Shown: positions 4,714 to 26,723 of the stretch, piece after piece
How positions within the stretch are numbered: position 1 is the first letter of the stretch
Layout of the letters: every line of letters starts with the position of its first letter
From: Candidatus Treponema caballi
GTDB taxonomy: Bacteria; Spirochaetota; Spirochaetia; Treponematales; Treponemataceae
Direction of reading: 5' to 3'
NCBI GenBank assembly: GCA_018066285.1
Contig: JAGHRS010000002.1
Location: 1-64,000, forward strand
Length of the DNA stretch: 64,000 bases
The notes under the pieces: model-generated
What the model was told of the DNA's origin: nothing
Seen by the model: only the letters and a program-made list of their open reading frames with translations
The model's database searches: none
Program-made: the position numbers and the translations under genes

Positions 4714-5742
4714 ATGGAAGAGAAAGTAATCAGTGGAAAGAAGAACGGCATGTCTGTGCTGTTTCTGACAGTTGTCCTGTATGTTGTCGCAATACTTGGA
4801 CTTGTTTTTGGCGCAACAAATCTCGGCTCTTATGTTCTTAATCCGCGTGATGTGGTGATTGTCGTTGTCTGCGGCCTGTACCTGCTGCTTGGCTGGATTC
4901 CGCTGCTGGGCCTTCGTGTCCTTAAACCGCAGGAAGCACTCGTGCTCACTCTGTTCGGCAAGTACTACGGCACGCTTAAAGGTGCGGGCTTTTACTTCGT
5001 AAATCCGTTCTGCGTCGGAGTTAATCCGGCTGCAACCACAAAGCTTTCTCAGAGCGGCGATGTTGCATCCCGTCCTGTGGTGGCTGTTCCCGCTGCAGGG
5101 CAGGTGCCTGTCGTGACAGGCATGCTTGACAAGAAGATGTCGCTCAAGATTCAGACGCTGAACAACGCAAAGCAGAAGATAAACGACTGCCTCGGAAATC
5201 CGGTTGAAATCGGCATTGCAGTCACCTGGCGCATCGTTGACACCGTAAAGGCTGCCTTCAACGTCGACAACTACAAAGAATATCTTTCACTGCAGTGTGA
5301 CACAGCCCTGCGCGACATTGTCCGCATTTACCCGTATGACGTTGCTGAGAACGTTGACACGACTGGCGATGGCGTTGCTGATGAAGGTTCCCTGCGCGGT
5401 TCAAGCGAAGTTGTCGCTCAGCGCATTAAGGATGAGATTCAGAAAAAGGTTGATGTAGCCGGCATTGAGATAGTCGACGCCCGCATTACGTATCTGGCAT
5501 ACGCTACTGAAATTGCAGCCGTCATGCTCCAGCGTCAGCAGGCTTCTGCCATCATTGATGCCCGCAAGATGATTGTGGATGGTGCTGTCGGTATGGTAGA
5601 GATGGCTCTGGAGCGCCTTAAGAACGGCGGCATGGTTGAGCTTGATGAAGAGCGGAAGGCGGCGATGGTGTCAAATCTGCTTGTTGTCCTCTGCGGCAAT
5701 CACGATGCACAGCCAATCGTTAATTCGGGAAGTCTTTACTGA
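4714..5742 (+). CDS. SPFH / band 7 domain membrane protein
   Basis: A 342-residue protein with two N-terminal hydrophobic segments (about residues 12-32 and 45-62), followed by the SPFH motif region ([20 protein letters not shown]) and a helical C-terminal part. Proteins of this family form membrane-bound oligomers at lipid microdomains. ATG 4714 is chosen because GGGGGGAG ends about 9 nt upstream; a TTG three codons earlier is unlikely. The stop codon overlaps the next start by one base (TGATG), so the small Arc-like protein is almost certainly co-translated with it. Confidence 0.88.
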
Positions 5743-5963: not shown

Positions 5964-6428
5964 GATGAGGCGGTTGTATATGCTGTTTTCCGGGATGCCG
6001 CCCTTGATGTATTCAGCGCCGAGCACTTTCTTATAGAACGGGGCAGCCTCGCGTACCCAGCCGATGACAGCATAGCCGTAGCCGTAAGCGCGCATTGCTT
6101 CAAGTGTCTTGAGCATAAGCTGCGTTCCTACTCCGCGGCCCTGCATGTCAGGATGAACGCCAATCGGTCCGAAATAGTCCTTTGCGGTTGCGTCATAGCA
6201 GGCAAAGCCGACGACGCGTTTGTTCTCAACAGCGATGAAACAACGGACCGGATCCTGCATCATGGCATAGCGGGCTTCGCCAATCCAGCCTGCGGCAAAA
6301 TGTTCCCGGATGAAATCAAGAACTGCCTCTGCATCACACGGATGCATCTGGCATATTTTTATACCCTCAATTTCCTTGAAGGCAGGGATGGTAGTAAGAT
6401 TAACAATCATGTCGTTTCCGTCTAACAT
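5955..6428 (-). CDS. GNAT family N-acetyltransferase
   Basis: A 157-residue single-domain acetyltransferase. The acetyl-CoA pyrophosphate-binding motif A is visible as [16 protein letters not shown], preceded by the VVGFACYD strand. An AAGGAAG ribosome site lies 6 nt before ATG 6428. The gene is convergent with the SPFH/Arc pair. The acceptor substrate cannot be predicted. Confidence 0.88.
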
Positions 6429-25694: not shown

Positions 25695-26666
25695 ATGAAA
25701 AATATATGTAAGAAGATTGCAGGAGCAGCATTGGTACTGTTGCTCCTGTATGTAATGACTGGCTGCCCGCACGACTCGTCTGACAATCCACCAGCACAGC
25801 CGACACCGCCAGCTGAACCGCCGGTACCAGCTGGTTTTGTCAAAATTAACGGCGGAACGGTGAGTTCAAGCTTTGGTAATAACGGTGGTCCGTTCTATAA
25901 CGCATCAGAGCAAACACCGGTAACGGTCAATACGTTCTACATGGCAGAAACAGAGCTTACCTATGCAAAGTGGTATGAAGTGTACACCTGGGCAATAAGT
26001 GATGAACGCAGGGCAGCAATGTATACCTTTGCGAATGAAGGTAGTGAAGGATATGACGGTACAGACGGAGCAGCCCCTACTGAAGGCAACACAGAGCCTG
26101 TAACCTGCGTAAGCTGGCGCGATGCTGTTGTCTGGTGCAATGCTGCAAGTGAAAAAGACGGCCTTACCCCGGTCTACTGGCTTGAAGGAACAACTCGGTT
26201 TACCGATACAACAAAAGTCTTGCGGTTTGCTGAAGGCTATGTTTCTGAACCTGGTGACGGCAAGGCCGAAAAAGCCGTAATCAACGAGAGTGCAAACGGC
26301 TACCGGCTTCCGACAGAAACAGAATGGGAATAAGCTGCAAGAGGAGGAAACCCGACAGCAGCAGCCTGGAATTACCGGTGGGCCGGAACAGATGAGCAAA
26401 GTGAGCTTGCTCACTTTGCTGTGTACAGTACAAACAGCACTGCCAATGTGCGCTCAAAAGAGAAGAATACAGAAGGGGTGTATGACATGAGCGGAAACGT
26501 ATGGGAGTGGTTCAAGTCAACAGACTCTTCGGGGTCCAATGGCCGTGTGTGCCGCGGTGGCAGTATGAACTATAGTGCGATTGGCTGTACTGTTGCGAAC
26601 CGTATCTACTACGCCCCGCGTACCTCGGGCGGCATTGGTTTCCGTGTTGTGCGTAACGCCGACTGA
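25695..26666 (+). pseudogene. TvpA-like formylglycine-enzyme-fold lipoprotein, interrupted by a stop codon
   Basis: A 323-codon reading frame with a single internal TAA at 26331-26333. The N-terminus is a lipoprotein signal with lipobox VMTGC, then a proline-rich linker, then the formylglycine-generating-enzyme/C-type lectin domain (VNTFYMAETELTYAKWYEV, YRLPTETEWE). After the stop the same frame continues AARGGNPTAAAWNYRWAG, DMSGNVWEWF, RGGS and finally GGIGFRVV. The stop replaces the Tyr of the conserved EWEYAARGG block, so one base change separates it from an intact gene. T. denticola TvpA, the target of a diversity-generating retroelement, has the same fold and lipidation. An SD (CGGAGG) precedes ATG 25695. 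A sequencing error cannot be excluded. Confidence 0.8.
26553..26648 (+). other. Variable-repeat-like 3' end of the TvpA-like gene
   Basis: The last 32 codons before the C-terminus run from CGC GGT GGC to TTC CGT GTT. Between invariant RGGS, CTVANR and IGFRVV lie runs of NNC/NNT codons (aac tat agt; atc tac tac gcc; cgt acc; ggc ggc) at positions where known Treponema variable regions have AAC-derived codons. This is the expected product of adenine-directed mutagenic retrohoming. It is inference: no template repeat or reverse transcriptase is present in this window. Confidence 0.45.
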
Positions 26667-26723
26667 CGTTTCCAGTGCTGGCGCATCTTGCACGGAAAGC
26701 CTGAAAGTGCGTATATTAAAGAC

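Follow-up and report, generated by a model that had tools for sequence, protein, structure and literature searches.

An interrupted TvpA-like lipoprotein gene of Candidatus Treponema caballi, probably an orphaned former target of a diversity-generating retroelement

Background

The TvpA family of Treponema denticola (PDB 2Y3C) is characterized by a lipoprotein signal, a formylglycine-enzyme (FGE)/C-type-lectin domain and a C-terminal variable region, the varying positions of which derive from asparagine codons. These proteins are targets of a diversity-generating retroelement (DGR), and T. denticola is also known to have remote targets (PMC4891356). Isolates of this species that lack the template and the reverse transcriptase keep leftover targets, some of them truncated (Nimkulrat et al., PMC4891356). 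Such leftover targets, with variable regions that retain the adenine pattern, have been found in ATCC33520, AL-2, ASLM, F0402, H-22 and other isolates without the DGR core (PMC4891356).

Here, we analyze a TvpA-like gene in a window of 64,000 nucleotides (the whole stretch of DNA under study; all positions refer to it unless another locus is named) from Candidatus Treponema caballi (GCA_018066285.1, contig JAGHRS010000002.1). The gene shares with the TvpA family the FGE/C-type-lectin domain and the C-terminal variable region, and has a putative lipoprotein signal; unlike in the T. denticola genes, its frame is interrupted, and a search of the genome recovered neither a template nor a TvpA-type reverse transcriptase. 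Very likely, the gene once served as a target of a TvpA-type DGR and is now orphaned, the cassette having been lost or the target having been acquired alone. Because leftover targets have already been described in T. denticola (PMC4891356), the kind of finding is a known one; the present gene differs from those in that it comes from a different genus of the family, and the template that matches it comes from a rumen Treponema, not from T. denticola.

Results and discussion

A TvpA-like gene with a premature stop codon

The gene occupies positions 25695 to 26666 of the forward strand and comprises 324 codons, including the final stop and one in-frame TAA; another gene follows at 26688. The ATG start at 25695 is preceded by a GGAGG ribosome site and opens a putative lipoprotein-type signal, recognized by inspection (25695 to 25766, forward strand; MKNICKKIAGAALVLLLLYVMTGC), the hydrophobic leader of which closes with TGC, the codon for the proposed acylated residue Cys24. 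Residues 47-320 of the product match the Pfam family FGE-sulfatase (PF03781; E 4.6e-33), and a second sequence match is to T. denticola variable protein 1 (PDB 2y3c; E 2.3e-20). The first-pass annotation, made from the sequence alone, had proposed an FGE/C-type-lectin fold, which both matches corroborate, and a TvpA-like protein, an assignment upheld by the second. By analogy with this family, the ancestral product may have been a surface protein that bound a ligand through variable binding loops.

What had escaped the first-pass annotation is the in-frame TAA at codon 213 (26331 to 26333, forward strand), where the closest homologue reads TAT (Tyr). Because of this codon, 25695-26666 is not a single open frame; the listed frames run from 25695 to 26333 and then, in the same frame, from 26421 to 26666, and the break lies before the variable region. 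The interrupted gene has probably lost its function, and it probably represents an inactivated relic, of a type already described, and not a remote target in working order. The 110 codons that remain past the TAA are, however, undamaged. This counts against the relic reading: the stop may have arisen recently, may be polymorphic among strains or may result from an assembly error. That the stop is indeed such a polymorphism or error, and that a cassette absent from the draft assembly, or one located on a mobile element, still serves the gene, appears unlikely; if this were the case, targets and cassettes would come and go independently in the genus.

The closest homologue is an intact gene with an adjacent template

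Among 195 genomes of the same family, a protein search identified one clear closest homologue (G140:C79), where an intact gene encodes a protein 60% identical over the full length; its contig probably corresponds to JAILPY010000157.1 of the rumen Treponema metagenome-assembled genome (MAG) RUI344, the sole match in a search of a genome-contig collection. An adenine-relaxed search of this genome located a template of 127 bp (L056:148-274) directly downstream of the homologue gene, about 156 bp from the variable region (L056:431-557). Template and variable region differ by 22 mismatches, 20 of which fall on template adenines, and most positions that vary in the window gene correspond to AAC or AAT in the template. 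No TvpA-type reverse transcriptase was found in the RUI344 MAG, in which the contig of the homologue stops just past the template.

The third-base pattern of the variable region is common to the two genes. They differ in that the RUI344 gene is intact and has its template nearby, with a strong hairpin between the two (L056:335-425; z = -8.7). No comparable hairpin follows the window gene; the short imperfect hairpin on its 3' side (26669 to 26698, forward strand; z = -1.04) is not stronger than shuffled sequence, and we therefore claim no retroelement role for it.

Third bases retain the imprint of adenine-directed change

The former variable region of the window gene extends from 26544 to 26651 on the forward strand, as delimited by the lock of third bases against both the template and the variable region of the homologue, and includes a core of adenine-derived codons (26568-26633, forward strand) framed by the motifs RGGS, CTVANR and IGFRVV. 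The codons that the first-pass annotation quoted for 26553-26648 (RGGSMNYSAIGCTVANRIYYAPRTSGGIGFRV) are present exactly as described. In a codon alignment made before the template search, the varying codons mostly keep their third base, whereas the framing codons differ mostly there. Between the window gene and the template of the homologue, third bases are identical at all 11 codons that are AAY in the template and at 9 of the 23 others (Fisher p = 6e-4). Where the two genes encode different residues, third bases coincide at 15 of 18 codons inside the region compared with 36 of 108 outside (p = 8e-5); both comparisons cover two genes only, with proteins 60% identical and one one-codon gap in the alignment.

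Locked third bases are the reverse of ordinary divergence and carry the imprint of adenine mutagenesis, so that the earlier proposal of an origin from AAC-type template codons stands: a template with such codons adjoins the closest homologue, and the lock is complete at its AAY codons. On these sequence comparisons, the pattern of the variable region is in excess of chance. The same evidence weighs on the reading of the gene as an ordinary FGE-fold lipoprotein with a naturally divergent C-terminal loop in which no retroelement was ever involved. Some FGE proteins of the family (L025-L029) do have C-terminal loops without template-like codons, and the fraction of NNC/NNT codons, which we had considered as a test, was dropped because non-targets score high too, a paralogue in the same genome (L006) reaching 10 of 11. 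Neither observation accounts for third bases that stay fixed while first and second bases change precisely at the AAY codons of the homologue's template, and we judge an ordinary loop to be most improbable.

No cognate template or reverse transcriptase was found in the genome

The first-pass annotation had noted that the window contains no reverse transcriptase or template repeat, as we also found, and had suggested that the machinery acts in trans. We searched the whole genome (2.91 Mb in 75 contigs, 99.8% complete, a draft assembly). With an adenine-relaxed pattern over 105 bp and at most 3 mismatches, the sole match was the gene itself. BLAST with the template of the homologue found no template, and BLAST with the variable region returned only that region and short chance matches. 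A family-wide motif search for TvpA-type templates gave one match in this genome, on contig C74; the match ends in AAGCC, and inspection revealed no template there. A search of viral contigs yielded no relatives.

Two RVT_1 matches were detected in the genome, on contigs C56 and C32. The C32 enzyme (1-857; L002), which is interrupted by the contig end, was rejected as a DGR enzyme: its best match is RT_UG27, a defence-associated unknown group, and it has a QG rather than an SQ motif. Contig C56 (4100-6500; L001, L018), in contrast, harbors a separate DGR with its own template (5507-5628) and target, the variable region of which (6129-6250) forms with the template a 122-bp pair whose 18 differences all fall on template adenines. 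The reverse transcriptase of this system, 405 aa long, has the GxxxSQ motif and YMDD. When a TvpA-type reverse transcriptase from genome G138 was used as the query, only this enzyme was recovered in the genome, with 28% identity, and the template and target of the C56 element are unrelated to those of the window gene.

These data bear directly on the view that the gene works as a remote target and is even now diversified in trans, the DGR lying elsewhere in the genome. Remote targets in T. denticola (PMC4891356) offer a precedent, and the C56 element, with its fully adenine-specific pair, is a DGR in the same genome. The C56 template, however, agrees with the window region at 70 of 99 positions under the relaxed comparison, as random stretches do, and because it does not match the region we reject this element as the trans-acting machine. 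Beyond C56, no adenine-differing template beside a reverse transcriptase was found for the gene, the genome search recovered no TvpA-type enzyme, and the frame is broken before the variable region. The proposal of trans-acting machinery is therefore not sustained; it is largely refuted already by the negative template search, and we regard it as very unlikely, although an assembly in 75 contigs could miss a small cassette.

Two further features of C56 can be mentioned. A small ORF of 137 aa lies between the reverse transcriptase and the target, and the reverse transcriptase, like the TvpA-type enzyme, matches the phage family phrog_1423. The setting of this DGR is likely a prophage.

Cassette decay in the genus and the origin of the orphan

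TvpA-type sets, consisting of a template and a nearby reverse transcriptase with the motifs IGNLTSQ and YMDD, are present at L101, L102 and L104-L108, in several genomes of the family. In a sister species (G001:C23; L120:5468-6137), two fragments of a TvpA-type reverse transcriptase, out of frame and covering residues 56-92 and 167-249 of the query, come after a target-like gene, and no template was found in the 12 kb around this gene. Judged from its sequence, the locus is a TvpA-type cassette in decay, which indicates that such cassettes do decay in the genus to which the window belongs.

An orphaned target could have arisen here by loss of the cassette, and either this loss or the arrival of a lone target is what we infer. 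In the second scenario, the target was acquired alone by horizontal transfer and the cassette was at no time present in the lineage. Six congeners yielded no orthologue of the window gene at E 1e-40, the closest homologue belongs to another genus, and the G+C content of the gene is 51% against 43-45% in its flanks, all of which would fit such a transfer; the decayed cassette of the sister species shows, on the other side, that the genus had such cassettes. We treat transfer as a possible but less than even variant within the orphaned-target explanation, not beside it, and the main conclusion is common to both.

Under the orphaned-target explanation, an error-prone reverse transcriptase would have copied the template repeat in an ancestor, misreading adenines, and the cDNA would have substituted the 3' end of the lipoprotein gene, altering surface loops of the C-type-lectin-fold protein. 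The adenine-derived codons would be the imprint left by this ancestral rewriting, and a nonsense mutation ahead of the variable region would have cut the frame. With neither the template nor its cognate reverse transcriptase found any longer in this genome, rewriting should have stopped.

The gene illustrates how retroelement ancestry can be recognized after the machinery is lost: third bases stay constant while the first two bases change, a signal that can be compared with a homologue in which the template is still present. Together with the decayed cassette of the sister species, it adds to a picture of frequent gain and loss of DGRs in treponemes.

Upstream of the gene, between 23984 and 25250, PIN-like ORFs and short antitoxin-like ORFs were noted by eye and may represent toxin-antitoxin pairs.
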